The notes under the pieces were generated by a model that saw nothing but the letters and a program-made list of their open reading frames with translations, did no database searches and was not told the origin of the DNA. DNA of 64,000 nucleotides from positions 6,287,501 to 6,351,500 of the forward strand of contig WPIO01000004.1 in the NCBI GenBank assembly GCA_009760855.2, given 5' to 3'. Both the position numbers and the translations under genes were made by a program. This stretch comes from Cristatella mucedo. Taxonomy: Eukaryota > Bryozoa > Phylactolaemata > Cristatellidae. Of the stretch, positions 5,551 through 63,797 are shown piece after piece; within the stretch, counting starts at the first letter, position 1, and each line of letters starts with the position of its first letter.

Positions 5551-5703
5551 AATATAAATAAATATAATTCATTTGTAGAGCGCCCCAAGATAACTCAATC
5601 TCTATTTAGGCGCTTCACATGTGCCTCGGGGCTCGAGCCCACGACCTCAGCCAGACCTTGGTCGGGGCGAGCACCTTCACTGCTGGACCAAACCAGTTCG
5701 CCG
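5551..5703 (-). mobile_element. SINE-1, tRNA-derived SINE
   Basis: This is a second minus-strand copy of the family at 2327-2473. Box B reads GGGCTCGAGCCC and the box A region TGGTCCAGCAGTGAAGG, slightly degenerate. The tail again contains the L2-A-like hairpin and an AT-rich end built of ATTTATA-like units. It lies in unassigned DNA rather than in an L2 copy. A short GATT(A/G)AA similarity on both sides may be a target-site duplication, but it is too short to trust. Confidence 0.82.
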
Positions 5704-7032: not shown

Positions 7033-7137
7033 AGCTCCGGCTTATTTTCACGGTGTCTTCAGCTCTGTTTTGGCTTTTGAGTTTCGAAGCCTGTTGACAA
7101 AGACGAATATATGTATGTTCCATATGCATAGCATCCT

Positions 7138-7202
7138 AGGAGAACTTGACCACTACTCAGGCACTTCACATATGCTGCCTGGCTCGAGCCTACAGCCTCG
7201 CC
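7138..7202 (-). mobile_element. SINE-1 fragment
   Basis: A 65-bp piece matches the middle of SINE-1 on the minus strand: box B (GGCTCGAGCC) and the sequence after it up to the hairpin region. The tRNA-like 5' head and the AT-rich tail are missing. It is too short for certainty. Confidence 0.5.
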
Positions 7203-8005: not shown

Positions 8006-9256
8006 ATAATAATAATAATAATAATAATGCACTTGATAAAGCGCCCTCAGAGAACTTAATTTCTTTCTAGGTGCTTTACATTTGCTGCAAAGGGAAATGC
8101 AATTGAATGGTAACTAAAATCATGCTTGAAAAACAAACAAAATGAATAACATGCTTAGGGGTGACATGCACAGGGTCAGCATGTAAAAGTGGTTAGTGGC
8201 AGCATGCACAGTGTCAGCACGCATAAGCACGTGAAGGACGAATCACAGGGACCCACTAAATGCTGTCCTAAATAGGTGTTTTTAAGTTGTTTTTAAATGT
8301 GGTCAGGTCAGGAAATGTTGTGACGCAGGTCGGGAGGGAGTTCCAGGCTTTGGAGCATACGAACTAAATGCACGGTCTCCAAAGGATTTAAGGTTTGTAC
8401 GAGGTATTTGTAGACTGTTGGATTCCGAAAAGCGGATGGTACGATGCTTGGCCTGATGGGGGAGTATGTCGGAGAGATAGGCTGGAGACATAGAATGAAG
8501 GGACCAAAAAGTGAGTGACAAAACCATGAAATCAATCCTTTACTTGACTGGTAGCCAGTGCAGGTCGGCGAGAAGTGGAGAAATGTGGCAACTGCGACGC
8601 TCACGACAGACAAGCCTAGCTGCAGAGTTTTGCACCAGCTACAATCGCCTGATCGCACATGCTGGTAGGCCAGTAAGCAGTGAGTTGCAGAAGTCGAGAC
8701 GAGATGTCACGAATGCATGGACCAACTTGGACGTGGTATCCTTATCTAAACAAGCCCGAATTTTAGCAATTTTATGAAGCTGAAAATAGGCAGATTTGAC
8801 TGTGGAGCTGATGTGGTCGTCTAACGAGAGGTCGCTTTGGAATACGACACCTAGATTCCGAGCTGATTCGACAAGAGATATGCTGGCAGAGCCAATTTTG
8901 AGAGACAGCCTTTCCAATCTCTGAATCAAACTGGGTTTGCCCATAACTAGTAAGTTAGTTTTGTCATCGTTTAGTTTTATAAAATTTGCTGCCATCCATG
9001 TGCGGATGTCATCAATGCATGCAGCAAGTGAGTTGAGAGAATTTGAGGTGCTCGAAGGCTGGAAGGGATCAAAGCAAAGGTACAACTGAGTGTCATCCGC
9101 ATAGAAGTGAAAGCCTAGATTGTGCTTGGCAATCGCGTCAGCAAGAGGGAGAGTAGAAATCGTGAAAAGAACCGGACCTAGCAGGGAGCCCTGATGTACT
9201 CCATATTTCAGAGGTGCTTCAGATGATCTTTGTCCAAACAATAGTTGTTCGATCCT
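8006..9256 (-). mobile_element. L2-A, 5'-truncated copy with (TTA)n 3' tail
   Basis: This is the clearest L2-A 3' half in the window. Read on the minus strand it has RT domain motifs, a C-terminal region with PAYLSDILPHQAKH and NLKSFGDRAF, a 3' UTR with a 38-bp tandem repeat (8153-8228), a terminal hairpin (8038-8079) and a (TTA)n tail (8028-8006). It is truncated at its 5' end inside the RT domain, as expected for target-primed reverse transcription, and is inserted into the 3' UTR of a plus-strand L2-A (7830-8005 and 9257-9320). It looks younger than most other copies because 200 RT codons are still open. Confidence 0.88.
8639..9241 (-). pseudogene. L2-A reverse transcriptase fragment (200 codons open)
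   Basis: The frame covers the middle and thumb of a LINE reverse transcriptase. It shows QGSLLGPVLF (residues 18-27), the catalytic FYADDTQLY with YADD at 47-50, LNDDKTNLLVMG (90-101) and ARNLGVVFQSDLSLDDHI (from 127). The catalytic aspartates are intact. The protein lacks the endonuclease and the N-terminal RT half, because the element itself starts here. The first ATG codon has no special status. The frame is cut near 8639; the C-terminal domain follows in other frames (8658-8308 and 8527-8303). It is a remnant, not an active enzyme. Confidence 0.9.
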
Positions 9257-9320
9257 GCTTCCATTGCGGCAGTCGTAAAGCGCCCAGAAAGAGATTGGGT
9301 TTTCTGATTTTATTTTATCA
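9257..9320 (+). mobile_element. L2-A 3' tail, right half of the split plus-strand copy
   Basis: TTCCATTGCGGCAGTCGTAA and the following AAGCGCCCAGAAAGAGATT match the terminal part of L2-A on the plus strand, including the 5' arm of the 3' hairpin. It completes the fragment at 7830-8005. Confidence 0.65.
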
Positions 9321-9344
9321 ATTGATTCAATATAATTATTATTA

Positions 9345-11694: not shown

Positions 11695-12915
11695 AATAAT
11701 AATAATATTAATAAATCGTATGTCACAGCACCGTTAGCAAACTGCATCTCTTTCTAAGCACTTTAAATTTGCTGCAAAGGAAGCACGATCTATTCTTTAG
11801 TAGCAGTAGCATGGTAATGAAAACAAGCATATCATGTATATAGGTGATACGCAGAGGGTCAGCCTGAAAATTCGGTTAGTGGCAGCATGGGCAGTTATGC
11901 ACTCAGAAACACATAAAGAAAAAGATACGCGAACCCACTAAATGCTGTAATATTTAGGTACGTTTTAGCTTTTTTTTATGTTTAGTCAAGTTAAGGGATG
12001 TCATGACATTTGTCGGAAGTAATTTTTTGGATTTGGGAAAATACGAATTAGAGGTGTGGTCTTCAAAGTGTTTAAGATTCGTAAGAGGTATAGGTGCACA
12101 ATTGGATTTAGAAAAGCGAGACGTACTATACTTAAACAGGTATGGGGAGTAACTGTAATAGGTCCAGCTGGAGCTAAAGCATGAAAAGACCTAAACAACT
12201 AGTGACCTAACCTTAAAGTCTACCCATAGGTTGACTGGGAGTCAGCGAGCTCGGCGAGAAGTAGAGGGACGAGGCAACTGCAACGCTCATGACAGAGAAG
12301 CCTAGCTGAAGAATTTTGCACCAGCTGCAAGCCGCCGATTGCAGTAGTCGAAGGCGAGGTGGGGCTGATGTGGTCCTCTACTAAAAGGTCACTTAAGAAA
12401 GGACAACTAGATTTCGTGCAGATTCAACAGGAAATATGCTGGCTGAGCCAATTTTGAGCGTAAAGTTATCCAATATCTTAATTTGAGTTTTCCCGTAACT
12501 ATTTGGTTAGTTTTATTATAATTAAATGTAATATCGTTAGAAAATATTGATATGCTGATGTCGTCAATTAATGCAGCAACTGAGTTGAGAGATTCAGTGA
12601 GCTAGAGGTTGGGGGTCAAAGCAAACTTACAACTGAGTGTCATCTAAATAGAAGTGAAAGCCTATATTGTTCCTGACAACCACACGGGAAAGAGGGAGAG
12701 TATAAACCGTCAAAAAAGACCGAACACGAAGCTATGCGATATCCCATACATCAATGGTTCCTCAGATGATCTTTGTCCATTCACATCAGTACTAAAGAGT
12801 CTCCTACAGAGATGGAACCCGAACCATTAGAGTGCAGTTGCAGTGATGCCCAGGTGAGATGAGACGCGCTGGAGAAAGCATCAGTGCTCAGTAGTATCGG
12901 AAGCTGCCAAACGAT
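11695..12915 (-). mobile_element. L2-A, decayed 5'-truncated copy
   Basis: On the minus strand this carries the L2-A 3' end (AAT-rich tail at 11695-11713, 3' UTR, C-terminal fragment at 12198-12001) and RT sequence up to about 12900. Frames are short and full of stops. The next L2-A 3' end begins at about 12925, so two copies lie head to tail. Confidence 0.72.
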
Positions 12916-15900: not shown

Positions 15901-16720
15901 CGGAAAACCGGGGTCATTGTGTAATCGAGACTAGGGGGCTTGCTACTTTTGTTGCGACCACCAGCCTGTACCAGCGATTCACCCACTGCCCTATTGCTAT
16001 AGCTAAGCAAGAAAAGCCGCAATTTGATGAAACCTCTTTAGAACAATCTGAGCAGCTCACAGACTGTGGACTCGATTTACTTGGTCATAGCAGTTCCGTC
16101 ACCGAAGACAAAGCTGCGCCATCATGCCCTAATACCACGTGACGGAAGTGCTCCATCTTGCTGGGCTACGGACTTTCCGGCTTTAAAAATAGGCATCGCC
16201 AGCTCCAAAATTATAAGGTTTATTGAACATTACTACCTGAGGTACTCGATAAATTGAGTACTGGTGCTGGGAAACAACAAAGCCAGCATACAAAAAGCAG
16301 GAGGACGACCTCGGATAAGAAAAATCCTAAAGGTTAGTTAGCTATCCACAAATAATAACTATTATAATAATAACACATTTGATATAGAACCCTTAATAAA
16401 CTCAATCTCTTCCAGACACTTCACATTCGCTGCAAAAAAGCACAATCGAATGGTAATGTCAGCTAGACAAAATTATTACATTACTGGCTGCATAACGACG
16501 AATCATTAGCTCGGCACTTCTCACCTCGGCGAAGTTTCCAGCTCAGGGAGAGGAGGCTATGAACAACCTGCTACACGGGAACAGGAAATATTCAAGCAGC
16601 AATAAGGGCGTGCTCATTTCCAGCCACGCTTGGGAAGTGGATCGTTGTAACTCACTTGGCTGACGTCATGGTCGACAAGCGCCAGCTATCCATCATTGGG
16701 TATGTGGATACTGTGCTACC
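12925..16720 (-). mobile_element. L2-A, nearly full-length but decayed
   Basis: The copy runs from a 3' UTR near 12925 to a 5' region near 16.7 kb. On the minus strand the frame at 14224-13901 contains the RT motif LLDLAAQFHTNN followed by GIALPCFRSY. The frame at 15667-15485 contains the endonuclease start SPAGIKLPMVVIV. The 16500-16560 part (CCAGCTCAGGGAG, GGCTATGAACAACCTG) matches the 5' region of the 1-3750 copy. The element would be about 3.7 kb, but it is broken by many stops and by a nested L2-A 3' fragment at 16345-16475. Confidence 0.75.
16345..16475 (-). mobile_element. L2-A 3' end nested in L2-A
   Basis: A (TAA)-rich tail, the terminal hairpin region and the start of the 3' UTR of L2-A are inserted on the minus strand in the 5' region of another L2-A. 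The homologous 3495-3525 stretch of the first copy is continuous across this point and gives the empty site. Confidence 0.7.
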
Positions 16721-18410: not shown

Positions 18411-21150
18411 CTTTTTGATTCTTCAATGCAAATCATTCGAGGAAATCAGGAACATTCATGATTAATTCCAATGGCACTTGGACATTTCAATTTCCATAGA
18501 AGTCGCATACGGAGTAAGGTGGTGCAAACCAAACAATCTGTAATTGATTAACATGGGTCGCCTTGGGTTTCCCCTGTGTTTATCTAGTTGAAAAAGGGTC
18601 TAGAGATCTCCCTTCCGTTGCCTGGGTGCACTATAGTATCGTATCATGACTTCCACTAATTAGCGGACAGAGAAATCCTACTTTCTCTCGCTAATAAAAC
18701 TGAAATGCGAAATAAATTTCTTCCATTCCATCATTAGTGTATACAGGCTCACTCATCGCTTGCCGCATCTTTGTCAGTAACCAACCGAGCAATTGTCGTG
18801 CATGGAGCTAAAAGAGCCATTTACTGACCTGAATTAATTTTTCTTGAGTTTTAGTGCAATTAATATGATATAGCTGAAACAAAAAGCAGCCACAGAGAAT
18901 AAAATAGCTTACTTACATAGGTAAAAGAGGCTTCGAGATTTTTTCTGCATTGTACTGACGGTGCACTTAACCTCTGTGACTGTAATCTACCCTTTAGAGA
19001 GTCTGGTTACTTTGCACGTGACTAAGCGCCTGGCCTCATCAAGTAAAATATCTACTCATCATCTTAATAGCCTAGAGTTTGTCAGGTTTTCTAGTCTCCA
19101 GCAATTCGAAGGCTTCGTTCAGATTCTAAACGACAATTAATGGAGGCACCAGCTAACTGAAAACTTGGCCTAAACTGTAGACTACCGAGAAAGAAGTGAC
19201 CTAATGGTGATAATTAAGATCTTAAAGTCAATGCAGTGCCTGATGGAACCCTAGTGCAAGTCGGCGAGAAGGGTTGGACTCTGGAAACCCTGCTATCTCG
19301 GTAGAGAAAATTATCTTCAAAGTTTTTACCAACTCCTAGTACCCCACCACCCAGTCTGAAAGACCAGGGACTAGTAAATACTGTGAGTTACAAGACCCTG
19401 TGATCGAATGCCACTGTTGAATGAAACAGCTTGGCAATGAATTTTCTGTCTTGGCAGGCTAGAATGTTTGAGGTGGAACTTATCTGATAGTGTCCAGATT
19501 TGGCTTAGGAACTGATATTTTAGTTTACGCGAAGGTACTTTGAAATTTCTAAGAATTCGCTTTCAAGTATTTCATAGACTTTTATCAAACGTAGGTATGC
19601 AATGCTTGTACGTAATTCTAATTCTTTTCCGTCATAAGCCAGAAACTTTGTAAACCCTAAAAACCATCAGAGTTTAACTAATTTAGAGCAAGCATCTTGC
19701 GCCTACCATACGCACTAATTTTGGAGAACAACATGAATGTTACTGAACTTTTATAGAAGAACGTGTGCAATACAGAACTATATTTGGCTGAATATCTTCA
19801 AATGCGAATCTTAAATAATGATTATAGCAGTTTCAAACTTGTAAAATAAATGATGTATCACTTGGTTTAAGTAGTCAGCCTCTCGTCCTCTGCAACAGAA
19901 ACAACGAACCAAAGTGCACGGTTCAGGACAGCTTCCCTTGGCAAGGAAGATCATCTTCGCATACTTATAGTTGATAAAAAATTAATCACACCATATTACC
20001 AAGTCAGTTAACCCTAACTGGATTTTCTAGAACGGGCTTTCTGAAGAATAGTGGTTCTTTATTAAATAACTGTAATCATTAGGAAGCTAACAATAATAAT
20101 TATGGTACATTTGTATTGCACTATCAGAGAACACAATCTCTTTTTAGGCAATGTACCTTTGCTTCAGAGGAAGCACGACCAAATAGTCAATGATGGCATG
20201 CTTAATTACAACAAGCATTACAGGGTTAGAGGCGGCATACACAGGGCCAGCATGAAGATTCGGCCAGTAGCAGCATGCAAAGTATCCACGCCCATAAGCG
20301 TGCAGTACATATCGCACGGAGCCACTACATATTGTGATACAAAGATGCGTTTTTGGCTTCTTTACAAATGTTTTCAAGTCAGAGAAAGTCGCAAGGCCAG
20401 TTGGAAGTGAGTTCCACGTTTAGGAGCATACGAACCAAAGGCACGGTCTCCGAAGGATTTAAGGTTCGTGTGCGGTAGTGGTATACGATTACGTTTGGAG
20501 AGGCGCTTGGTGCACTGCTTAGCCGGGTGGGCTGTAGATATGCTCGGTAGGTTGGAGCCATGGAATGAAACTATTTAAAAGTGAGTGACTGATTCTTGAA
20601 GTCATCGCTTTGTTTGACTGAGTGCTAGTGCAGGTCACTGAGGAGTAGTGGGATGGGGCAAAAATTAAACTCCGGTAAGTGATTACTATTTAGGTCATGC
20701 AATCCAAATATGGAGATTCACGCACTGAGGCAACGTAAATGACTAGCATTTAAATAAACGCCTTTTCATTTAAAGACTACTTTATTTGTTAGAATGTCCA
20801 TCTCTAATTATTCCAGTAACTAAAATCTGAAAAATGACCCAACTAATGAAGCATCTCTTAAAACGATAATACGGTTCGTGGAAGGCCATTTGGCTAAACA
20901 ATAAGTTAAGGTACATTTTTTCATAGAAAAACCGTAATTGCGTCTTTTCAATACCCATAATTACAATTACGAACCAAAGCTTTTACGTAGTGTGGGAAAC
21001 CTACGTGCCTTGTCTATTCGTTTTGTCTGCTTTGCATGACCTGAAGGCTTCTAATGAATGCCCATGTCATGCAAACTGTGTACAGTCCAGATACTTACTA
21101 TTCCAATTAAATTGGCTAGATGTAATCCTTTATGAATAGAAGATTTCAGA
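18411..21150. repeat. Repeat Y, old copy E
   Basis: This stretch is colinear with 40882-43749 and 55955-58701. Landmarks are TCTAGTTGAAAAAGGGTCTA (18587), CTAAAAGAGCCATTTACTGA (18809), GAGAAAGAAGTGACCTAATG near 19187 and GTCTATTCGTTTTGTCTGCT near 21011. It includes an L2-A fragment at the same relative place as in the other copies, so that insertion predates the duplication. It is much more diverged than the other two copies are from each other. No coding potential was recognised. Confidence 0.65.
20095..20660 (-). mobile_element. L2-A 3' fragment inside repeat Y
   Basis: The AAT-rich tail, hairpin, 3' UTR and C-terminal coding end of L2-A are read on the minus strand. The frame at 20561-20379 includes APTYRAYL, corresponding to the family's APAYLSDLL region. 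The paralogous insertions are at 42465-43140 and 57415-58090. Confidence 0.65.
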
Positions 21151-26427: not shown

Positions 26428-26853
26428 TTAATTGATCTCGAACTCCATCATCAAAGCCGCATTAAAAAAGAGGGTTTTCAGAGAGTTGCACTTAACAACT
26501 GGCAAAAGCGTTTCGGTGAAATCGTTACCAACCATCTGAAAACTGCCTTGCGCAAAGAAGTAGGCCGTAAAGCTGCTCACGGACCCCTCCACATCGTGCT
26601 TCACCTTGAAGGCACCTTTGCATCCGATAGCTTGCCTGCCCTTGGGTAATTCGGCAATCTCATAAAAATCATTGCCGTATTCGTCATTATACAGTCTAGC
26701 ATGCCGTCGAGCTTGAGTTGATCGTCGTAGAGGAGCATTATCTAACTCGGTAGGAGCATGTTGGAGGGTAGGTTCAGCCGTAGATGCATCATCAGTCGCA
26801 GATTGGACTTGTTGCACAGACTCATCTTGAGCTCTTTGTTCGAGGTGCTGCAC
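26428..26853 (-). pseudogene. Copia pol fragment: integrase-RT linker and RT N-terminus
   Basis: This 141-codon open frame starts with the glutamine- and serine-rich linker that follows the integrase in copia polyproteins, including LRRSTQARR (usual RRS(T/S)R(x)R). It then enters the RT with LPKGRQAIGCKGAFKVKH (usual GCKWVFKxKx; the tryptophan is glycine here) and LPVVKCNSLKTLFFNAA (usual APVVKxxSLRxLLAxA). It ends where the RT fingers end, long before the YVDD site. Several conserved positions are replaced, so selection has been lost. Confidence 0.85.
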
Positions 26854-27273
26854 AACATCCTACCCTGGCACTTTAAAAACTTGATCAGATTTGCACGCAT
26901 GAACATTCTACACAGTTTGCTTTCTTATAGAAGTACCTAGTAGGTAAACAAGTCTTCCTTGTCTTATGATAGATGCAGCCACTTCTTTTGACCCAGGTAA
27001 GGTAAAGGACACGTGACTACCGTCTAACTCCACCTTAAAATCTCTCGATGCATTCGCTTAACCAAAAAACGTTCTTGGCAAGTTTGGGTACAAGAAAAAC
27101 ATCTCGCAGTTCAGCTTTGAGCTCGCAGTTCAGCTTTGAGCTATGTACTCTCAAAATGCAGCTGGACACTTATCGTACCAATGCATATCGCTCGAAGCAC
27201 TTCTCTGTCATCAGCCACGACCCGGCGATCAGTTTTCTTGCAGTAGGAATAGTTTTGGTTCATAGCACATATG
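26854..27273 (-). pseudogene. Copia protease region, frameshifted, integrase deleted
   Basis: Joining the minus frames by eye, the region after gag carries an aspartic protease relic. The active-site neighbourhood is at the end of the gag frame (IYSGVI for the usual LDSGAS/T), followed by a CYEPKLF-like stretch and DVFLVPKLAKNVF, which corresponds to the family's L(x)DVLYVPKLxxNLLSV. A 19-bp direct repeat (27103-27121 and 27122-27140) has disturbed the frame. After GRLVYLL-like residues the sequence passes directly to the linker, so the whole integrase core is missing. Confidence 0.65.
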
Positions 27274-27942
27274 CTATATGACTCCAGAATATATAAACTT
27301 TTCCTGCTGTGATGGAAGCTGGTGGGTAGTCGAGTCGGCAGTGAAAACTAAGGAGTCCGTAGTTGCCGTACTGGCCACAGATTTGGCATTTTCGTGTTGT
27401 TTACTTTTGTAACATTGCGAAGCCTTGTGGCGAACTACTGAGCAGTAGTGGGACTTACCAGTAAATCTGAGAGTGTGCTGCTTACCGTCGGTGGTAGGCG
27501 AAGCCGCTTTACTGGTTTTCCGTGCTTCATTTGAAGCCACAAGAGCCACCCTACTCATGCTCTTGTCAAGGGAAGGCCTATTTGGCCGCCTCAAACGCTC
27601 ACGTATTAGCCTGCACTGAACAATGTCAAGCATTAAGTCGGACATGTCTCTTGCTTCAAGGGCCATTATCAGAGGCTGCCACGGCTTTGGTAGCCCATTA
27701 AGCATGCTGACGACAATCTGTTCCTCTGGTGTAGTGTCTCCTACGGCTTGAAGCATATTTGCAATTGATTTCACTTCGCTTGGGTAGTCCTGGACATATT
27801 CACTTTCTGTCATCTGGATAGATGACAGCTTCAGATATACGAGTAGCCTACTCATCAGCGTTCTTGAAGCGTATACGGCATCCGGCTTCCACCATGCCTT
27901 CGAAGCCGTTACCGTGGTTTCAATACCGGAACTCATCAGCAC
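27274..27942 (-). pseudogene. gag: Copia gag remnant
   Basis: A 222-codon frame encodes a capsid-like gag of the copia (UBN2) type. MTESEYVQDYPSEVKSIANM near residue 43 and EEQIVVSMLNGLPKPW further on match the usual 'xxxVxxYxxxIxxLxxxLxxxG...LLxxLPxxYxxxxxxL' layout. The zinc knuckle is degraded: SHYCSVVRHKASQCYK keeps only some cysteines and a histidine. The frame opens at GTG. An upstream ATG (about 27960) starts a four-codon frame that ends in TAA, so the original start is probably lost by a frameshift. The C-terminus runs into the protease. Confidence 0.82.
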
Positions 27943-28195
27943 AAAAATTTAGGCAGCCATGACGAGCACAGACACAGCTCTCGTCGTGCGCCGGTCAAAC
28001 GCTCCCTGTGCCCTACCGTCCTCTTCGTCTTTCTTGCAACTCTTACGGGTAGGAGATGCAATAATCACGTACCGTCTCTAGTAGCAATTTAAGACACGCC
28101 AAAGCTCGTCGGCGAGGAAGTAGAACTTCGCCCCGGTACTCTACACCTGCCAATGCTCACCCGCTAACTTCTCCAAATCAACGACGCCAGTGAAC

Positions 28196-30142: not shown

Positions 30143-31536
30143 GTAACTGGCCTACAATTAAAGAAGCAACCCAGGCTGGTTTCTCATTCTATCACACCCC
30201 AGGATCAATCTAAGCTGTAGTTGGAGTCGCTGTTGTCGTGCACCACAAATTCGATTTCAAGCCATTTGCGGATCTCTCGAAGCAGTCTTTTGAATTGATT
30301 GTCTCGATTTGACCGAACAACGAACCGATTATTACCAAATCTTGCTTATCTGAACACATACAGATTTGACTCAGTCTACATTGTATGCCCTCCTCCTTCT
30401 CACTTTTCTCTAAAATCACCTGTATATCACGAAACATCAGGACTCTTGACACATCGATGCTGGCATGATGATGAGAATATCTGTTCAGCTTCCGTTAATT
30501 AGTACTACTGCCTATCTATCATAATTAATAGATTGCTATAGGTTGACACTGGCTGAAATTCTCAAAGATTTTGCACCTCTGACTGAGCGCACCGTGAGTC
30601 CTCGCCAGACGGCCTATGGTTTACCACATAAATTGAACTTGCAGGCTCTAATAAGTGCAAGCTTGAAAAATCATTTACGAGATCAGGTATGACTGTCAAT
30701 CCACAGGCACACGAGGACCAATTTATTTCACGCCAATCTATCCTGGCAAATTCCAAGTCTAACTTAATAAAAGCCATGTTAAAATCCCAGATGGACATTA
30801 AAAAAATGCTGCCGTCGCCAATTAACCCTCTTCTCAATTGCTCCGAGGTTAACTCTTTTCCTAATGATACCTGTGATGATCTAGCTGATAGCGTCTCTAG
30901 CTTCTATGGCCAGATGATGGGCAAGAGAAGGGAGCCTGTCCCAACGAGGGCAGCGTATGCAATAGAATGCTATCCGTCAATGCCATGCCGCACCTAAACA
31001 ACGTCTATTTACAAGGAAGTCACTAGCAACCTCATGCTAAAGATCATATCCCAATCTAGAAGATAACTAGAATTTTGGAGCATATTCCAACTGTCCTGGT
31101 TCTACGATGCACTGATCTGCTGCTGCCATGCACAACTAATCTCGTTAACAAGTCAGCAGTTTATGAACACCTCCTAGCACCTCTTAAAAAGGCAGTAGTC
31201 AGGCCTCTAGTAAAAAAAGCCACATTAGACGATGAAAACTTGAGCATCTACCGATTAGAATACCTTCTAAAATTCCTATAAATGACACAGGAACGAGTCG
31301 TGGCAGACCAGCCAAACTCATGTACTGAAACTTTAAACCTCGCTAGTCAGTTCCAATCTGATTTAAGAGCTAATCACTCCACAGAGTCAGCATTTCATCA
31401 GGTGAACCACGATATAATTGGGAATTGCAGACACGGGTAGAGTATCTCTGCTTGTTTAGTCCTATGTTTCGGCAGCTTTTCATACAATCAATCAAAAAAG
31501 GCCTTCCTGAACTTCTCTTATCTCGTCTGGGCATTA

Positions 31537-31860
31537 TTGGCGCTGAATGGCAATAGTTCAGTCCTATATTGGTGGGAGATACCAGAGTGTGGATGTGACA
31601 ATCTAGGCTTTCATTTCTATTGGAACGACAACCAGTTTTACCTTACATTTCATATCTCCCAGCTCACGGGCATGTCGAATTCTCCCACGTCAAATTCTCT
31701 CAACTCCCTTGCTGCATTCATTGATGACACCCCTACCTGGATGGCAGTACATTTTCTTAAGTTGATTGATGATATAACCAATTTACTAGTCATGAGCAAG
31801 CTAAGTGTCATTCAGAAGTTAGAAAGGCTAACCTTCAAAATCGGCCCTGCCAGAACATAA
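31537..31860 (+). pseudogene. L2-A reverse transcriptase fragment with mutated active site
   Basis: This 107-codon frame aligns with the RT at 9241-8639 of the minus strand (NLGFHFY..., LNSLAAFIDDTPTWMA, LVMSKLSVIQKLERL). The catalytic YADD is changed to YWND at residues 28-31 and one metal-binding aspartate is lost, so the protein would be inactive even without the stops. Confidence 0.85.
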
Positions 31861-32508
31861 TCTGTTAAATGTGCACGAAATCTAAGTTTCGTGCTCCAAA
31901 GTGATCTTTAGTTAGAAGATCATTTCAGCTCCACAACCCAGCCTGCCTACTTTCAGCTTCATGGTATTGCAAACAGGCCGGCTTGTTTAGACTGGGTTAA
32001 AGTAACTAACTCCATACATTTGTGATATCTGTTTTGACTTATGCAACTCACTGCTCGCCTGTCTACCGACCTCTCTGATCAGGAGCTTACAGCTGGTGCA
32101 AAGCTCTGAAGCTAGGCTTGTCTGTCATGAGCATCGCAGTTGCCACATCACGTCACTTCTCGCCGAACTACACAGGCTCCCAGTCAAGTAATGGATCGAC
32201 TTCATTCGAAGTACTTATTCAGTTGTAGCTTTTGTCAGTCAATTTCAGGTCCCTTTCTTCTGTGGCACCTATCAGATCTACTGCCGCACCAGGATAAGTC
32301 TAGTATCACCTGCTTTTCATTATCTTGCGGCTTACATATACCTAGTACAAACCTTTAGTGCTTTACAGAACCTCCAATTAGTCCGTATGTTCCCAAAGCT
32401 GGGAAATCACTTCCGACTTCCGTCACGATATCCCCTGACTTGACCACATTTAAAAATTAATTAAAAATATATCTATTGATCACAGCATTTAGTGGATCCT
32501 TGTGATTG

Positions 32509-32660
32509 CTCGGTTGGTTTGGTCCAGTAGTTAAGGTGCTCGCCCTGACCAAGGTCTGGTTGTGGTTGTGGGTTCGAGCCCAGTCGCAAATGCGAAGCGA
32601 ATGAATAGAGATTAAGTTCTCTTGGGGCTCTATACAAATGAATGGTTTTTATTTTATGTT
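32509..32660 (+). mobile_element. SINE-1 nested in the L2-A 3' UTR
   Basis: This is a plus-strand copy with box A TGGTCCAGTAGTTAAGG, box B GGGTTCGAGCCC (close to the tRNA consensus) and the L2-like tail GATTAAGTTCTCTTGGGG, ended by a T-rich stretch. It sits between GTGATT and ATTCGTCC of the L2-A 3' UTR, which other copies have as one continuous sequence, and ATT is repeated on both sides. The 3' ends of host and guest carry the same tail. Confidence 0.87.
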
Positions 32661-32890
32661 TTTTATTCGTCCTTCAAGTGCTTATGTGTGCTAAAAAAGT
32701 GCATGCTGCCAATAATCAACTTGCATGCTGACCCTGTGCACGTCACACCTAGCCATGCTATTCTTGTTATTGATTAAGCATGCTGCTACTAACCATTCAA
32801 TCATGGTTCCTTTCTAGCATCTGTAAAGCGCCTCGAAAGACATTGAGTTCTCTGAAGACCCTTTATCAAGTGTGTTATTCCATATATTAA

Positions 32891-35410
32891 TATATATATA
32901 TATACTTATATATTTATATTTATATTTATATATACTTACATATATATTTAGGAGAGAAGCCTAGGAACACATGACTTCTTACTGGATGCATACCCTACAT
33001 TTTATTCTCAAGACGTAGCGGATAGGCAAGTTTATTTACTTATGATTTATAAGCCACAAAACATGGTTATTTAAGACTAGAACTAATGGAGCAAACGTAA
33101 GTGAACTAAAGATCCTCAAATTCCAACAAAATCCAGAAAAAACTCGAAACTAAAAATTAACACTTGATATGGCGAGGGTCGATCGAAGAATACCGTAGTC
33201 ACCATTTATAAAAGTAAAAAATATTTAGCGAAAATCTGTTTCTAATCATAACTCAAGCATCCAAGTACGGACATAACGAGGATTCCTCAACATTGATAAA
33301 GCCAAAGATAGGCAAGCCGCTGGCACCAGGCTCTATGTTCACCCTACCATTACAAAACTTGCGAAGTAAGACACCCACTCACAGTAATCAAACGGGCTGA
33401 TGTTAATCCCAGCCGAAAATGTGGCCGAGCATAGAAACAGGTTAAAATCGAAACCACATTCATCGCTTTATTAGTGCTAAATCCGATAGCAGGCTAACTA
33501 GTTTGCCTGATCATAGCTGCTGCGATTTTATGGCAACCAAATAAATCACCAACTGAATATTCCTCTTCGTCCTCTAGGCCAAACAGGTAGTCAAACCTGA
33601 AAGCAACACCTTGAGCTGTCATCAGGAGAGAATTTTTAGGCATCACCAAATTTCACTCATAAATCCGAAAGCAAGCCTGACCAGCTCCATTCGGTGTCTC
33701 TTCTTTTCTGTACCTCAAGAAGTTTTGTAACTTTAGGCTAGAACGGCAAACACCGATCAAACGAATATCCGACTCTAAAACTCGGAACCCGATGGCAAGT
33801 ATCCGTTAGGATGATACGTGCGTCTTGAAATAAGGCTTTTCAAAGCCCAAAAAGTTGAGATACTGTCCAGCATTTTAGGCGAGTCAAATAAAGACTTCCT
33901 GCACAAAATCAGCTCTGAGGTACTATTTCTTCCGATGGAATATTTTGTAAGTTTATTGGAAGGGAGATGTCAAGAAAATATTTACAAATTCAACTGATAA
34001 TGAAATATTTGTTTAGGATATGGTATCAACAGTTTCGATGACTTCTGCTTAAAAGAAAAAGTAACTATGCAAAAGTAAAAATGACGTCTAACCCAGATGT
34101 AAGCTGAAAGCAACATATCTGCAGATGACAACTCTAATAATCTCAGCAACAAATGGGACTTGTTGAACTATTTTTCTGGACCATTTTGCATATAACCCTG
34201 AATCTGTACATTTGTGTTCTGCTATCCGATATGCCGTCTGCCAAAGCTGCAAAACAGGTCCCCATCACTCACTTTTTTGCTACAGCATTCTGCAATATCC
34301 TGTTTAATATCAAGTTTAGTTTCGGCAAAAATACATGCAAGTACATCAATTGCTGTAGAACATGGTAGCGATGAAAAGACCTCATTTTTTAATTATTACA
34401 TTCAAATCCGTAACCTAGAATAGTCTATTCGACGGCTTCGCTGCGTTTAGTTGACTAGATCAAGTGGAAGGCTTAAAACAATTTCCAAATGTTTATGAAG
34501 CCGTAAACTGTCTGGCTAATAGTTTAAAACCCAACTTAGTGACTGTGAGTTACATGATTTGGGCCTTTGTTTCACCTGCTTATGGATAATTGTATACACT
34601 GTTAGTGATGATTATAACCTCGGAAAGGCGAAGTATATATTGGAATCGATTGCTGTAATATAGGTAGTGCCTATGTTTTACTGCTTCCTTCTTTAATTCG
34701 GGTATCCCTCGAACAGGATAAGAAAGAAAACGTATTTCATCAACAATTTAGGGTCACTATCTTTAACTTAACCGCCTCATTAGACAGAAATGTAAGGTTT
34801 TTCTACGGTTTTTGAGCAAGAACATTGCAGCGAAGTGACGGTAAAACCATGGCGAAGTGTGTGCTGGCATATTTACGATATTAAGCTACTAAAAATGTGT
34901 GCTAAAAAATGTACGAGGCTCTGCAATAGGTCAATTTGAGTTCTAGCGTTTGAATTATCTAGATGTGATTATGAAATGGCAAAAGATACCAGGAAAATAC
35001 AATGACAGTAAAATTAACTCACTGCTCTTAGTTAAAAAGATTTGCTGTGTCACATATTGGCAATCCTGCACCACTTTAACTAAAATGTGACCTTGCATTT
35101 TTCGCTGTGCATTTTCTTTTACGAGAGGTAGGGCCTGCGAACGAAGAAACAAAGTTGCAAATCGAATCTCGACTTCGGGAATGGAGGTTCATCTCACTTA
35201 GGTTCCACCATTAAGTAGGTGGCGAGCCTTAAGTGGACACACAAACGACTCGGCTGACAGAGCTAGTGCTGAGACTGCAGCTGTCTGAATTGGCACATCT
35301 GCCCGTCGATTACCAGTTCCCAGTGCCGGTCGGCGGCGCCTCTACGAGGAGACTTGCCATCGGTAGAACGGCTCGGCAATGCTGAAGCACTAGCAAGCAC
35401 GGCGCTCGGT
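32891..35410. other. Unassigned AT-rich region
   Basis: No gene or repeat was recognised in about 2.5 kb. It starts with a short TATATTTA-type microsatellite (32885-32950). The open frames are below 72 codons and overlap each other. Confidence 0.3.
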
Positions 35411-36461: not shown

Positions 36462-36517
<56 letters not shown>

Positions 36518-36568
36518 AGTTCTCTGAAGGCGCTTTATAAAGTGCATTATTATTATTATTATTATTGT
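36449..36568 (+). mobile_element. L2-A 3' tail with expanded (GA)n inside, nested in L2-B
   Basis: CTGTAAAACACCTCGAGAG, the GA tract at 36463-36514, then ATTGAGTTCTCTGAAGGCGC and a (TTA)n end align with the terminal part of L2-A (compare 32828-32880). Only about 65 bp of L2-A is present, an extreme 5' truncation. The GA tract lies where the element normally has AGAAAGAGA, so it grew from it. Confidence 0.72.
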
Positions 36569-40881: not shown

Positions 40882-43749
40882 GATGCTTTGGCTTTTCTGA
40901 TTCAATTCGATTGAGCCCAGCATTCTTTCAGCTCTTGAACTATGTGATGTCGATCGCTAGCACATATGACATAAGATGGCACAAACCAAGTGCTCTCGAG
41001 TTTCCTAAATAGCCTCTCTTTGGTTATCGTTCGGTTGTTCTAGTTAAAGACCATCTAGATATCCCTCTCCAGTTGCACGGAGGAGTGTTATTGTATATAT
41101 TCCAGTATTTAGTGGACTGAATAATCATCAATGTACTACCTCTATAGAAATCAAGCTGCGACTCACGTTTCTTCCACTCCATATTTAGTGAAATACGCTG
41201 GTATTTCTCCGTGTCAGCACCTTTATCACTAAGCAATCAGAAAGTGAATGCCTATGATTCTAAAAGAGCCGTTTACAGACACGAATTAATTTTTGTGGAT
41301 TTCCAGTGTCAGTGATGTCATGTAGCTGAAGCAAAAATAACTACACCGACAGAATAACTTCTTTAAAGCTTAGCAGCAGGTTGAAGATCCCTTTCTACCT
41401 GACAAATAGCACAATTTAAAGTATTGTAACTATCGCTTGACCCCTCTCTGGGGTGTCCTACTCATCGTCTTGAAAGACTATTTAGGGTTTAGCAGGTCTT
41501 CCGGCTGTCAACAAGTTTGTAGTCGTCATTCAGATGGTAAACGACCATTGATGGAGGCACCAGCAAGATGAAAGCATGGCCTTAACTATAGACTTCCGAG
41601 AAAGAAGTGACGTAAAAAAGATGAGTTATATAACCTTGAAGTCAATATATACGATACGATTGCGATCTCGGGAGAGAAGCTTAACGGCAAAATAATTTGC
41701 AAACGATTAGTTCCTTATAGCACAATCTGAAAGACCACGGACTAGCAAATATTGTGAGTGACGAGATATTGCGATTGAACTTCAATGTAGGATTAAACAG
41801 CAAAGAATTCAATTACCTGCCTAGACAAGCTAATCTGTTTGCAGAGGTACTTACTTATCTCGAAGTGCCAGAGTTGGCGTAGGAGCTGATATCACATAGA
41901 GGTCCAGTGGAAGGTTACTGAAATTTTTAGACATTGTCTTTAGTTATTTCGTCTACTCAAAAATCCACAGGTACGCGAACTATTTCACCTTTCTACTACT
42001 TCCTTTTCGAAAAAAGTAAATCTTGTATTTCATTCAAGGTCTTTCGAATTTTAATAGCTTATAGCTTGCTTGAACGTAGTGCAGCCCACCTGCTAACCTC
42101 GCAAGATGAAATAAATGCTGGTGAATGATTTAAGAAGAGCAAGCAGAATTTGAAACTATAATTGTCAAAATATATTTAATCACAAATTCAAAATAATGTT
42201 TAGGATTCTGAAACATTAAAAAATTAAACATTCTGTATTTTGAGTAAACAAATCAAAGTTTTGTTTTGTGCAATTGCTAAAGTATGGGGAAGTGCAGATT
42301 GCTGAAAGGCCGACCTTGGCCAAGTTATTTTTGAATATTCAGTGGTGCAAAAAAAGTAACTGCTTGTTTCTCCCTAGTCGATCAACTGGTAACGTTTTAT
42401 TTTCAAGAACAAGCTTTCAGCATTAAAGTAGTTATTTGCAAAAAAGTTTGTGATTTAAAAATATAACACTGTTAAAAATGCATTTCTATAGCACCCTCAG
42501 ATTATTTCTTATGCTTCTAGGTAACTTATAACTGCTGCAAAAGAAGCATTTCTTAATGGTTAATGGTAGCCTGCATAATGACAGCGAGAATAATACATGT
42601 TAAGCACCTGGAAAGAGATAGTTCTCAGAGGTCGCTTTATCAGGTATATTATTATTATTAAAACAGTTTTAGAGGTGGAAAGCTCAGGGTAAGCATGCAC
42701 ACATTTGTAGTGACAGCATGCCTAGTGAGAGTAAACATAAGCTCACATGAAAAGATGATTCATATCGACTCACTAAACGGCGTGATACAAGGTTTTTTGT
42801 AACTTTTTTTTAATGTAGCTAAGTCACTGGACGATTCAACGCCAGTAAGGTAAAATGTAAGCACCTGACTTTGAGAGTAAATGAGCTAAACACACGGTCT
42901 TCAAATAGTCGAGGTTCATAAGAGGTTTAGGTAAAGAATTAAATTAAGTAGAGCAGGTTTTTAAGTTGTTTAGTCTGGGTGGGCTGTATATCTGATAGGT
43001 ACCCTGGAGTCGAAGAATAAAGGGACCTAAAAGCAAGTGACAGCACCTTTATTCGACCGATGGACTACTTGACTGGGAGCCAGTGCAGATCTGTGAGAAG
43101 CGATAGGACGTGGCAAACAAGTTATAAATGATGGCTGACATGGTTATGCAAACCGAATACAAGTGTTCACACATTGGTGGATATAATAAGACTAGAACAT
43201 GAAAACAAGCTTTTCATTCAGAGACTTTTTTATTTTCTGAGACTATGAGATATTTGACCATATTATCCACCAGAAAACGCATCTCGGCCGATCAGTTTTT
43301 TGGAAGACCAATATAGTTGAGCAAGCAATAAAATGCACACTGTTTACATCAACAAGGATTGAAATTGATTTCTTTCAATTCCAATTAATGAACAGCTGAG
43401 ACCCTAAGCTTCTAATTGTTGCAATAAGTCTGCTTGGTGAGTCTATTCGTTTTGTCTACTTTGCCTGGACTGAAGACTTCCAGTCAATGCATATATCACG
43501 CAACTAGTTTTAAGTCCAGAAAAGATTTCATTACAAACCATTTTTGACAAGTTATTAATTTCACAATGGGATATGGCAAAGAGTAAATGAGAACAAAAAA
43601 GGCCGTTTTTTTATTTAATGGTATTACGATTTTTAAAGTTACACGATTCCAATGCTTTATTACTAGTTATTAAGTTAGAAATTTTCCTCGAATAGAAACT
43701 CTTTATTTTACACGGAGGTTTGGTTTCAGCTGCCTGTCTCTGGCCTGCT
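40882..43749. repeat. Repeat Y, copy A
   Basis: This is colinear with 55955-58701 at high identity by eye and with 18411-21150 at much lower identity. It directly follows repeat X here and in copy C, but not in the old copy at 18.4 kb, where repeat F precedes it. It includes an L2-A fragment. No coding capacity was recognised; the frames at 41934-42128 and 41236-41024 are conserved in copy C only because the duplication is recent. Confidence 0.65.
42465..43140 (-). mobile_element. L2-A 3' fragment inside repeat Y copy A
   Basis: On the minus strand this is the L2-A 3' UTR and C-terminal coding end, with no clear TAA tail left. The same insertion is found in the two other Y copies, so it predates them. 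Confidence 0.65.
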
Positions 43750-47620: not shown

Positions 47621-48046
47621 TTATAATAATAATAATAATGCATTTGAAAAAGCGCCCTCAGAGAACTCAGCTTCTTTCTAGGGGCTATATAGTTGCTGCA
47701 AAGGGAAACGCGATTGAATGGCGAATAATATCATGCTTCATATTCAACATGATTATAACATGGTTAGTGGCAGCATGCACAGTGTCAGCAAGCAGAAGCA
47801 CATAAAGGACGAATCACAAGGACCAAACAAATGCTGTCCGAATCACAGGGAACCGACGACTGCCGTCCTAAATAGGTTTGTTTTTAAGTTATTTTTGACC
47901 GTGGTCAAGTCAGGGAATGTTGTGACGTTGGTCGGGAGTGAGTTCCAGGTTTTGGAAGCATCAGCACTAAATGCAAGCTCTCCAAAGGATTTAAGGTTTT
48001 GTACGAGGTGTTGGTTAACTGTTGATTTCCGAAAAGCCGGTTTGAC
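47621..48046 (-). mobile_element. L2-A, 3' fragment with (TTA)n tail
   Basis: An AAT tract (47621-47640), the 3' hairpin, 3' UTR and last coding part of L2-A lie on the minus strand. The minus frame 48088-47843 includes NLKSFGELAFSADASKTWNS, a well-kept C-terminal motif. It stops where a minus-strand SINE-2 begins. Confidence 0.8.
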
Positions 48047-50030: not shown

Positions 50031-51574
50031 ATATAATGTGGTTAGAGGCGACATGCACAGCATCAGTATGCAAGTGTGGTTAGTGGCAGCATGCACAGTA
50101 TCAGCATGCATAAGAACATGAAGAATGAATAACAGAGATCCACTAAATGCTATCCGAAAAAACGTGCGTTTTGAGATTCTTTTAAATGTGGTCAAGTCAG
50201 GGGATGTTTTAACCAAAGTCGGGAGTGAGTTTTGGGCTTCGGGAGCATGCGAACTAGATGCATGGTCTCTAAATAATTTGAGATTTGCACTATTAATAAG
50301 TAAGATGTAATTTTCCCAAAGGCCGGTGGCATGACGCTTGGCCTGGTGGGGGAGTAGATCTGATAGATAGGCTGGAGCCAAAGAATTAGGAGACCTAAAA
50401 GTGAGCGACCTTAATCCGTTGCTTCACTGGTATCCAGTGGAGGTCGGCGAGAAGTGGTGCTCTGCCGAGACCGCAATGCCAATGACAGACAAGCCTAGCT
50501 GCAGAGTTTAGCAGCAGCTGTATGCACCTGATTGAGCATGCCGGCATGCCAACAAGCAGCGAGTTAGAGAAATAAAATCGGGATGTCATAAATGCATAGA
50601 ACAGCTTAGATGTGCTATCCTTACCTAAACAAGCCCGATTTTTATTACTCTCATGCAGCTGAAAATAGGTAGGCTTGGCAGTGGAGCTGATGTGGTCGTC
50701 TAACGAGAGGTCGCTTTAAAACATAACATTTTGATTTTTCACAGGTCTGATTTTGTGCAGATTCAACACGTGATATGCTGGCAGAGCCGTTTTTGAGTTT
50801 AGCACTTCCACTTTCTGAATCAAACTCGGTTCGCCTATAACTATTTATTTAGCTCTATCATTATTTAATTTAATAAAATTTGATGTCATTCATACGGCAC
50901 TGTCATCAGTATGAACATCGATCGACTCAGAGAATTTGAGGTGGTCGATGGCTAGGAGTGATTAAAGCAAAGGCACAACCGAGTGTCATCTGCATAGAAG
51001 TGAAATCCTAGGTTGTGCATGGCAATCACATCGGCAAGAGGGGCAGTATAAAGCGTGAAAATAACCAGACCTAACAGAGAGCCCTAAGGCACCCCACATT
51101 TTAAAGGTGCCTCGGATGATCTTTGTCATTTTACTTCAATACTCTGGAGTCTCCCACTAAGGTAGGACCTGAAAGATTGCAGAGCAATGCCAGTGATACC
51201 CAGCCAATATGAGATGTGCTCAAGAATAACTTGGTGATCGATAGTATTAAAAGCTGCCGAAACAACAAGCAAACCAAGCAGAGATACTTTACCCATATTC
51301 CGCATCCCTAAGGAGGTCGTGGTTCACCCTATGCACTGCCGTTTCTCTGGAGTGATCAGCTCTAAAGACGGAACTGGAACTTACTAGCAAGGTTTGAAGT
51401 TTAAATATATGAGTTCAGCTGGTCTGCAACGAATCGCCTCAATATCTTTGATATGAATGGCAGAATGAAGACTGGGCGGAATACACTAAGTTCTCTTGGT
51501 GTAGTGTCACTTTCTTAAAAATTGGCCTGACTTAAGCTTTTTTTGAAAGCAGCTGGGACATGACCTGAGGCTAA

Positions 51575-55954: not shown

Positions 55955-58701
55955 GATGCTTTGGCTTTTCTGATTCAATTCGATTGAGCCCAGCATTCTT
56001 TCAGCTCTTGAACTATGTGATGTCGATCGCTAGCACATATGACTTAAGATGGCACAAACCAAGTGCTCTCGAGTTTCCTAAATAGCTTCTCTTTGGTTAT
56101 CGTTCGGTTGTTCTAGTTAAAGACCATCTAGATATCCCTCTCCAGTTGCACGGAGGAGTGTTATTGTATATATTCCAGTATTTAGTGGACTGAATAATCA
56201 TTAATGTACTACCTCTATAGAAATCAAGCTGCGACTTATGTTTCTTCCACTCCATATTTAGTGAAATACGCTGGTATTTCTCTGTGTCAGCACCTTTATC
56301 ACTAAGCAATCACAAACTGAATGCCTATGATTCTAAAAGAGCCGTTTACAGACACGAATAAATTTTTGTGGTTTTCCAGTGTCAGCGATGTCATGTAGCT
56401 AAAGCAAAAAAAACTACACCGACAGAATAACTTCTTTAAAGCTTAGCAGCAGGTTCAAGATCCCTTTCTACTTGACAAACAGCACAATGTAAAGTATTGT
56501 AACTATCGCTTGACCCCTCTCTGGGGTGTCCTACTCATCGTCTTGAAAGACTATTTAGGGTTTAGCAGGTCTTCCGGCTGTCAACAAGTTTGTAGTCGTC
56601 ATTCAGATGGTAAACGACCATTGATGGAGGCACCAGCAAGATGAAAGCATGGCCTTAACTATAGACTTCCGAGAAAGAAGTGACGTAAAAAAGATGAGTC
56701 ATATAACCTTGAAGTCAATAGACTATATATACGATTGCGATCTCGGGAGAGAAGCTTAACGGCAAAATAATTTGCAAACGATTAGTTCCTCATCGCACAA
56801 TCTGAAAGACCACGGACTAGCAAATATTGTGAGTGACGAGATAGTGCGATTGAACTTCAATGTAGGATTAAACAATTTTTAGACATTGTCTTTAGTTATT
56901 TCGTCTACTCAAAAATCCACAGGTACGCGAACTATTTCACCTTTCTACTACTTCCTTTTCAAAAGAAGTAAATCTTGTATTTCATTCAAGGTCTTTCGAA
57001 TTTTAATAGCTTATAGCTTGCTTGAACGTAGTGCAGCCCACACGCTAACCTCGAAAGATGAAATAAATGCTGGTGAATGATTTAAGAAGAGCAAGCAGAA
57101 TTTGAAACTATAATTGTCAAAGTATATTTAATCACAAATTCACAATAATGTTTAGGATTCTGAAACATTAAAAAATTAAACATTCTGTATTTTGAGTAAA
57201 CAAATCAAAGTTTTGTTTTGTGCAATTGCTAAAGTATGGGGAAGAGCAGATTGCCGAAAGGCCGACCTTGGCCAAGTTATTTTTGAATATTCAGTGGTGC
57301 AAAAAAAGTAACTGCTTGTTTCTCCCTAGTCGATCAACTGGTAACGTTTTATTTTCAAGAACAAGCTTTCAGCATTAAAGTAGTTATTTGCAAAAAAGTT
57401 TGTGATTTAAAAATATAACACTGTTAAAAATGACTTTCTATAGCACCCTCAGATTATTTCTTATGCTTCTAGGTAACTTATAACTGCTGCAAAAGAAGCA
57501 TTTCTTAATGGTTAATGGTAGCCTGCATAATGACAGCGAGAATAATACATGTTAAGCACCTGGAAAGAGATAGTTCTCAGAGGTCGCTTTATCAAGTATA
57601 TTATAATTATTAAAACAGTTTTAGAGGTGGAAAGCTCAGGGTAAGCGTGCACACATTTGTAGTGACAGCATGCCTAGCGAGAGTAAACATAAGCTCACAT
57701 GAAAAGATGATTCATATCGGCTCACTAAACGGCGTGATACAAGGTTTATTTTAGCTTTTTTTTAATGTAGCTAAGTCACTGGACGATTCAACGCCAGTAA
57801 GGTAAAATGTAAGCACCTGAGTTTAGGAGTAAACGAGCTAAACGCATGGTCTTCTAATAGTTGAGGTTCATAAGAGGTTTAGGTAAAGAACTAAATAAAG
57901 TAGAGCAGGTTTTTAAGTTGTTTAGTCTGGGTGGGCTGTATATCTGATAGGTACCCTGGAGTCGAAGAATAAAGGGACCTAAAAGCAAGTGACAGCACTC
58001 TTAATTCGACCGATGGACTACTTGACTGGGAGTCAGTGCAGATCTGTGAGAAGCGATAGGACGTGGCAAACAAGTTATAAATGATGGCTGACAAGGTTAT
58101 GCAAACCGAATACAAGTGTTCACACATTGGTGGATATAATATGACTAGAACATGAAAACAAGCTTTTCATTCAGAGACTTTTTTATTTTCTGAGACTATG
58201 AGATATTAGACCATATTATCCACCAGAAAACGCATCTCGGCCGATCAGTTTTTTGGAAGACCAATTTAGTTGAACAAGCTAAAAAATGCACACTGTTTTC
58301 ATCAACAAGGAACGAGATTGATTTCTTTCAATTCCAATCAATAAACAGCTGAGACCCTAGGCTTCTAAATGTTGCAATAAGCCTGCTTGGTGAGTCTATT
58401 CGTTTTGTCTACTTTGCCTGGACTGAAGACTTCCAGTCAATGCATATATCACGCAATTAGTTTTAAGTCCAGAAAAGAGTTCATTACAAACCATTTTTGA
58501 TAGGTTAATAATATCACAATGGGATATTGTAAAGAGTAAATGACAAAAAAAAGGCCATTTTTTATTAAATGGTATCACGATTTTTAAAGTTACACGATTC
58601 CAATGCTTTATTACTAGTTATTAGGTTAGAAATTTTCCATCGAATAGAAACTCTTTATTTTACACGGAGGTTTGGCTTCTGCTGCCTGTCTCTGGCCTGC
58701 T
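55955..58701. repeat. Repeat Y, copy C
   Basis: This is colinear with 40882-43749 at high identity. It has a deletion of about 122 bp at 56874 relative to that copy; the old copy at 18.4 kb keeps the segment, so the deletion is derived. An L2-A fragment lies at 57415-58090. It ends at GGCCTGCT and passes to block D2 within 12 bp. Confidence 0.65.
57415..58090 (-). mobile_element. L2-A 3' fragment inside repeat Y copy C
   Basis: This is the paralogue of 42465-43140. The minus frame starting at 58127 reads LAFRSLYSSTPGYLSDIQPT, the L2-A C-terminal region. Confidence 0.7.
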
Positions 58702-62465: not shown

Positions 62466-62750
62466 CAGAAACACACCTATTTAGGACAGCATTTAGTGGG
62501 TCTCTGTGATTCGTTCTTCACGTGCTTATTCCTGCTGACACTGTGCATGCTGCCACTAACCACATTTGCTTGCTGACCCTGTGCATGTCACCACTAACCA
62601 TGTTATTCATTTTGTTTGTTTTTCAAGCATGATTTTACTTACCATTCAATTGCATTTCCCTTTGCAGCAAATGTAAAGAGTCTAGAAAGAGATTAAGTTC
62701 TCCGAGGGTGCTTTATCAAGTACATTATTATTATTATTGTTATTATTAAG
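62466..62750 (+). mobile_element. L2-A 3' UTR fragment nested in L2-A
   Basis: The plus strand reads the end of ORF2, the UTR with its CATGC-rich tandem repeat, the terminal hairpin and a (TTA)n tail (to 62748). The surrounding minus-strand L2-A continues at about 62752. Block D1 has the uninterrupted sequence around 52690. Confidence 0.82.
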
Positions 62751-63516: not shown

Positions 63517-63550
<34 letters not shown>

Positions 63551-63797
63551 CACTTGATAAAGCACCCTCAGAGAACCCAATCTCTCTCTATGCGCTTTAC
63601 ATTTCCTGCTAAGGATATGCAACTCAATGGTGAGTAATATCATGCTTTATAAACAGACAAAATGAATAACATGATTAGGGGTGACATGCACAGGGTCAGC
63701 AGGAAAATGTGGTTAGTGGCAGCATGCACAGTGTCAGCACAAATAAGCACATGCAGGACGAATCACAGGGACCCACTAAATGCTGTCCTGAATAGGT
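63516..63797 (-). mobile_element. L2-A, 3' UTR only
   Basis: An AAT tract (63520-63549), the hairpin and UTR tandem repeat are followed by GGGACCCACTAAATGCTGTC. The copy is truncated directly beyond the coding end and is followed at once by the tail of another L2-A. Confidence 0.85.

Follow-up and report, generated by a model that had tools for sequence, protein, structure and literature searches.

Within the 64-kb stretch of Cristatella mucedo DNA analysed here (the window), a short element, SINE-1, ends in the same hairpin-forming tail as L2-type LINE copies around it, and the locus near 32.5 kb raises the question of which LINE supplied this tail and whose enzyme moved the element. SINE/LINE pairs are a means of studying how the enzyme of a LINE selects its RNA. 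A preliminary description held that the resident L2-A had mobilised SINE-1. The LINE-derived 3′ hairpin in this proposal is well supported, but the choice of L2-A in particular is not, given features of an older donor, relative age and nesting. From sequence comparison we favour, with a probability of roughly 0.6, a history in which the tail would have come from a pre-L2-A, L2-B-like member of the lineage and SINE-1 would have been moved by the enzyme of that lineage, later members included.

SINE-1 and the hairpin tail it shares with L2

SINE-1 is a short element in which Pol III-type boxes A and B are fused to the last 60–75 nt of an L2-type LINE. The complete copy S32 (32508–32664, plus strand) lies inside an older L2 copy. 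Two further full copies, S2 (2327–2472) and S5 (5551–5700), are on the minus strand, S2 having the best-preserved hairpin, and an old, 5′-truncated fourth copy, S7 (7121–7199, minus strand), was recognised by sequence comparison and a shuffle test. A motif search with what we take to be the box A and box B consensus found both motifs near the 5′ end in all three full copies, 51 nt apart from start to start, so that the tRNA-like boxes of the preliminary description are present, as expected of a tRNA-type SINE. In S32 the box A-like motif TGGTCCAGTAGT occupies 32520–32531 and the box B-like motif GGTTCGAGCC 32571–32580 (both plus strand). ARAGORN predicted no tRNA gene in the 64-kb window, and Rfam gave no tRNA match there. 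Box B is followed within about 10 nt by the L2-derived tail (32586–32652, plus strand, in S32, where it was assigned by an L2-only profile and its outer stem has decayed), so that a central domain would hardly fit in between, judged against what we assume to be the sizes of such domains.

The element is dispersed and multicopy, with 40 scored matches on many contigs among 3852 first-look candidates, a figure that is not a copy number. Target-site duplications are apparent at the 28 independent SINE-1 loci as a set: the longest flanking match averages 4.8 nt, compared with a control mean of 3.4 and a maximum of 4.4 in 500 reshuffles. At seven of these loci it reaches at least 6 nt, and at one there is none.

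In the consensus alignment SINE-1 and L2 share a block that starts with GCAWATGT, includes the hairpin and extends to ATTAT. The sharing itself thus stands as first described, but the block measures about 60–75 nt rather than some 40 bases. A profile that combines six L2 tails and no SINE recovers S5 (E 1.3e-9), S2 (8.8e-8) and S32 (1.8e-6) in the 64 kb. Far from disappearing at the consensus level, the shared core scores 41, the maximum among 5000 dinucleotide shuffles being 18, and each of the four SINE-1 copies scores above its own 2000 shuffles. Over the 220 nt upstream of the tail, SINE and L2 have no similarity at E 1e-3, S32 with its insertion in an L2 excepted, and were rightly called unrelated there. 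The likeness of the tails is sequence homology.

The consensus tails of SINE and L2 have a common predicted fold, made up of an outer stem AGYGCCU/GGGYGCU, a 4×2 internal loop, an inner 5-bp stem AGAGA/UCUCU and a hexaloop that is mostly UUAAGU. By profile, shuffles and predicted fold, SINE-1 and L2 therefore have a common 3′ end capable of forming a stem-loop, as expected of a stringent pair. Fifteen window tails were folded, leaving out x57 (a duplicate of x42) and x36 (a microsatellite), and six of them (A8, A63a, A63b, x20, S5 and S2) have a z-score at or below −2.3. The outer pairing and inner hairpin first described are recovered in S2 (z −4.86), S5 (z −3.13) and the consensus, but not in S32 (z −0.84), whose outer arm GCGCC now reads GCGAA and which is one of nine tails above the cut-off. 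Decay after insertion would explain these nine. The compensatory changes that had been suggested as a check were not seen: the 15 window tails have none, fewer than their shuffles (mean 2.8), RNAalifold predicted no pairs from the same alignment, and the SINE-1, L2-A, L2-B and L2-C consensus sequences differ only by one-sided changes. Covariation, which a stringent pair need not show, was therefore rejected as support for the stem, and the predicted hairpin rests on thermodynamics and constancy.

Nested insertions and the L2 series

L2 tails in the window, as found with the L2 profile, outnumber the three first named. L2-A 3′ ends lie at 8011–8086 (minus strand, E 3.6e-24), 62666–62741 (plus), 63532–63607 and 63804–63879 (both minus), and another L2 3′ end at 47623–47697 (minus). 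Older L2-related ends were found at 9269–9343 (plus, E 3e-10), 11698–11773 (minus, E 6.4e-8), 16361–16431 (minus, E 2e-7) and 20089–20163 (minus, E 6.8e-8). The positions originally given for SINE-1 and the L2 3′ ends were borne out on re-inspection, with S2, S5 and two of the L2 ends (8038 and 63550) on the minus strand. An L2-related end at 42596–42660 (plus) recurs at 57548–57612, but the two are not separate events: both are within a 99% identical duplicate, and they were therefore counted as one.

The 3′ end at 8011 lies downstream of a reverse transcriptase fragment (8639–9343, minus strand; Pfam RVT_1, E 2e-10), their continuity being judged from position. A reverse transcriptase remnant at 31441–31857 (plus), upstream of S32 and perhaps part of the L2 copy in which S32 lies, is 64% identical to that fragment over 84 aa and has no Pfam match. 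A PDB sequence search gave no match. The RVT_1 domain is present in one fragment, and the name L2 for the putative clade of the partner LINE follows the preliminary description.

In a further L2 3′ end (36506–36563, plus strand) one arm of the inner stem has turned into a (GA)n microsatellite. Four L2-type tails have the AGAGA arm within or adjoining a (GA)n tract (window 36463–36514; L036, about 3008; L110, about 1442; L114, about 1408), so this hairpin arm may act as a seed for microsatellites. The region 38449–62470 is locally duplicated, blocks of 150–300 nt recurring every 6, 9, 10 and 15 kb or so at up to 98% identity. Stretches matching the L2 3′UTR contain, at 50037–50110 and 60266–60338, about two tandem copies of a 38-nt unit. 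At 26428–27948 (minus strand) there are remains of a copia-type LTR retrotransposon (Retrotran_gag_2, E 3.7e-16; RVT_2, E 3.4e-8).

Removal of 32508–32664 restores an uninterrupted L2 3′ region, and the paralogous L2 copies A8, A62, A63a and A47 span the join without exactly three bases, which shows that insertion of S32 produced a 3-bp duplication ATT (32505–32507 and 32665–32667, plus strand). The gaps are different in the alignment of two more paralogs, located at 50 and 60 kb. Because S32 interrupts an L2 copy, the 3′ end of that copy (32816–32891, plus strand, by the L2 profile) is no independent neighbour, and the idea of two elements lying side by side at 32.5–32.9 kb was rejected in favour of a nested insertion. 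What was first described as an L2-A 3′ end at 32828–32880 is this same L2 end, but it groups with the older L2-C and not with L2-A. The reverse arrangement also exists: at locus L047 an L2-A tail sits between the two halves of one SINE-1. Two loci on the same contig as the window (L002 and L003, at about 6.54 and 6.48 Mb) carry the same SINE-in-L2 insertion as S32, the SINE being 94% identical, so that the surrounding segment must itself be duplicated. These two were removed as duplicates from later SINE counts where stated.

From the 572-Mb assembly we drew 30 SINE-1 loci (28 of them independent, S32 included), 30 L2-A loci, 40 L2-B places, smaller pieces, and a grid sample of 60 kb in 20 stretches. 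The SINE-1 loci, which were retrieved through their similarity to S32, form a homogeneous set. Locus L031 is the window copy A62, L032 a near-duplicate of A62, and L061 the same copy as L025:1777. In 60 loci plus the window, a scan yielded 134 tails, or 124 after removal of 10 from duplicate loci, which by their upstream sequence comprise 44 SINE, 40 L2-A, 16 L2-C, 7 L2-B and 17 unclassified tails. The tree computed for 47 selected L2 copies (3′UTR and tail; midpoint root, with L2-A copies fetched by similarity to A62) is a ladder with L2-A within L2-C within L2-B, and mean differences inside the groups are 4.2, 22.3 and 23.8% for L2-A, L2-C and L2-B, respectively. The tails of the L2 lineage thus form a series L2-B, L2-C, L2-A. 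A CGCC sub-branch proved to be mostly L2-A or L2-C with one base changed (18 fetched). A search with the reverse transcriptase scored 150 matches among 100,042 candidates, some with open frames of up to 1021 aa; of five 3′ regions downstream of long open L2 frames, four have an L2-A tail, and the fifth ended inside the tail.

Among these stages, the donor of the SINE-1 tail is weakly resolved. L2-B is identical to SINE-1 at 54 positions (6 mismatches, 2 gap columns), L2-C at 53 (7 and 3) and L2-A with the end GTACATT, which derives from copies fetched with A62, at 52 (8 and 3). The L2-B consensus comes from 40 genome places, its first copy, L025, having been picked partly for its SINE-like look and its tail being contained in the query; the L2-C consensus comes from 15 copies picked by eye. 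By identity these tails are thus nearly equal, and an L2-A variant ending in GTGAATT, which occurs in several copies (e.g. L140 and L143), also reaches 54 (6 and 3; score 42 vs 44 for L2-B), so that L2-B was rejected as the clearly closest tail by identity. Where L2-B and this variant disagree, SINE-1 sides with L2-B in four cases (T4, A47, no extra T, CAAAT) and with the variant in three (C13, C43 and GAATT, of which C13 and C43 are stem positions). In the predicted folds SINE-1 and L2-B have the same A·A mismatches, L2-C has the inner one, and L2-A has an A–U pair and an extra U; the fold of SINE-1 thus favours L2-B as the donor type.

Relative age was estimated from tails that were not chosen by the queries. 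Median divergence from their own consensus is 15% for SINE-1 (n = 16), 8% for L2-A (12), 16% for L2-B (7) and 16% for L2-C (16), and SINE-1 tails are older than L2-A tails (one-sided p 0.025). Among near-full-length SINE-1 copies (at least 120 nt) outside the query matches, not counting L061, which repeats L025, nine of 12 have diverged by 4–11% and three by 15–18%. Taken together, the medians and these nine copies indicate that SINE-1 arose earlier than most L2-A copies and persisted beyond the main period of L2-B, which, being old, cannot alone have moved them. Age and nesting, with a SINE-1 in an L2-C-like copy and an L2-A tail in a SINE-1, favour a pre-L2-A donor.

The most serious competitor of an L2-B-like origin is that L2-A itself was the donor and sole driver of SINE-1, which we consider unlikely. 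L2-A is the youngest group and has copies with long open frames, C13 and C43 of SINE-1 match it, and its GTGAATT variant ties with L2-B. Its commonest hexaloop, TTAAGT (31 of 40 tails), is also that of SINE-1 (33 of 44), as it is of L2-B (27 of 40 and 4 of 7), while L2-C most often has TTGAGT (8 of 16). One SINE copy of 28 (L014) ends in CAAGTGAATTATTATT, as do some L2-A copies. Against this, U47, the extra U and CAAG of L2-A are absent from SINE-1, SINE-1 tails other than the query matches exceed L2-A tails in age, and an L2-A has inserted into a SINE-1. The L014 copy (about 1500–1660) ends in CAAGTGAATT and then ATT repeats, as some L2-A tails do, and is possibly a product of tail exchange or template switching.

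Internal loop, terminal repeat and direction of transfer

The internal loop sets SINE-1 apart. Its 5′ side reads GAAT in 37 of 44 SINE-1 tails and its 3′ side TG in 33 of 44, while the 5′ side in L2 is AGAA (34 of 40 L2-A, 13 of 16 L2-C, and 6 of 7 and 32 of 40 L2-B tails). GAAT occurs in none of 101 classified L2 tails, a set without two of the 40 L2-B tails and the 17 unclassified ones, so that these tails do not account for the SINE-1 loop. Of the nine ungapped differences between SINE-1 and L2-B, the six positions of the internal loop account for five (p 1.2e-4, a post hoc value whose differences are non-independent if they arose in one event), compared with two in the 30 positions of stem and hexaloop, both of which keep the pair.

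Such a loop could point to a true partner in an unsampled or extinct LINE that has, or had, the SINE-type internal loop, since GAAT and TG mark SINE-1 so consistently. We regard this as rather improbable. The L2 upstream sequence CTTTRCAG joined to the SINE loop, with up to one mismatch, has a single match in the 572 Mb, which reads GAAA, against 12,896 matches for its combination with the L2 loop (a figure that takes in L2-A and L2-C at one mismatch; no matches in reversed controls), although a LINE with another upstream sequence escapes this pattern. The 60-kb grid likewise held nine tails (sorted by eye), eight of L2 type and one weakly SINE-like.

The ends also differ. At least three perfect ATT units were found in only two of 28 SINE-1 ends, against 28 of 30 in L2-A and 29 of 40 in L2-B, so that a terminal repeat common to both elements, usual but not obligatory in stringent pairs, is lacking; TTTT occurs within 26 nt, a stretch that may take in flanking DNA, in 19 of 28 SINE-1, one of 30 L2-A and six of 40 L2-B copies. 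The preliminary description had attributed the different A/T-rich tails either to a sister L2 lineage or to a repeat that is not critical. L2-B has the same repeat as L2-A, so this sister stage does not explain the SINE-1 end, and with the failure of that branch an exact repeat that is not critical becomes the favoured one. The A/T-rich end of SINE-1 with its T-runs may derive from Pol III termination rather than from another partner.

Transfer of the tail from SINE to LINE, or its sharing through gene conversion, is very improbable: similarity alone proves no direction, but the L2 tails run on into a 3′UTR common to L2 copies and are more diverse than those of SINE-1. Chance or convergence, conceivable for so short a hairpin core, is ruled out by the shuffles (41 against at most 18 in 5000) and by profile E-values down to 1e-9.

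Proposed history and putative recognition by the L2 enzyme

In the L2-B-like origin that we favour, SINE-1 would have acquired its tail from this L2 lineage, probably at a stage that preceded L2-A, and the ORF2 protein of the lineage, later members included, would reverse transcribe its RNA, the end of the transcript perhaps being set by Pol III termination at T-runs. Copying by later members is suggested because the stem and hexaloop have hardly changed; recognition probably does not hinge on the internal loop, the outermost pairs or the terminal repeat, since SINE and LINE are unlike in these parts. A more specific version, which we put forward tentatively as possible rather than probable, is that SINE-1 froze a pre-L2-A hairpin that the descendant L2-A still copies. 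The near-constant outer stem, inner stem and UUAAGU loop would then be what the ORF2 protein reads, while the internal loop, flanking pairs and terminal repeat would be free, and the SINE end would be set by Pol III termination and not by the (ATT)n of the LINE.

A literature search found no description of this SINE-1/L2 pair, and a search with the tail sequence returned only papers unrelated by title. The closest parallels are UnaSINE1/UnaL2 of eel and the zebrafish LINEs ZfL2-1 and ZfL2-2, which have an L2-type 3′ stem-loop that in the eel pair is common to SINE and LINE. ZfL2-1 and ZfL2-2 are stringent L2 LINEs in which the ORF2 region between endonuclease and reverse transcriptase binds the 3′ stem-loop; the proposal there is that specificity comes from the loop and general recognition from the stem (PMC4176376). 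A tail common to SINE and LINE is taken as a sign of such parasitism, and the end of UnaL2 consists of TGTAA repeats (PMC3747384). Unlike these systems, the present pair has a loop that is mostly UUAAGU, a LINE repeat (ATT)n and a SINE mostly without this repeat. As far as the entries in Table 1 of that source go, the architecture class is shared with tRNA-type SINEs carrying L2 or CR1 tails such as SINE2-8_SP/L2-1_SP of sea urchin and Nve-Nin-DC-SINE-1/L2-22_NV of sea anemone (PMC3747384). The same table has some members of the CORE, V, Deu, Nin and Meta superfamilies with L2-type tails like that of SINE-1 (PMC3747384), which differs from these superfamilies in its little room for a central domain.

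The differences between the SINE-1 and L2 tails suggest direct tail-exchange tests; otherwise this is an ordinary SINE/LINE pair. A single genome here holds a series of LINE tails together with a SINE whose tail departs from every one of them at the same few sites, a pattern that gives a hint as to which parts of the RNA are needed for recognition. If the proposed history is true, SINE-1 and three successive L2 stages would amount to a natural experiment on recognition by the ORF2 protein.
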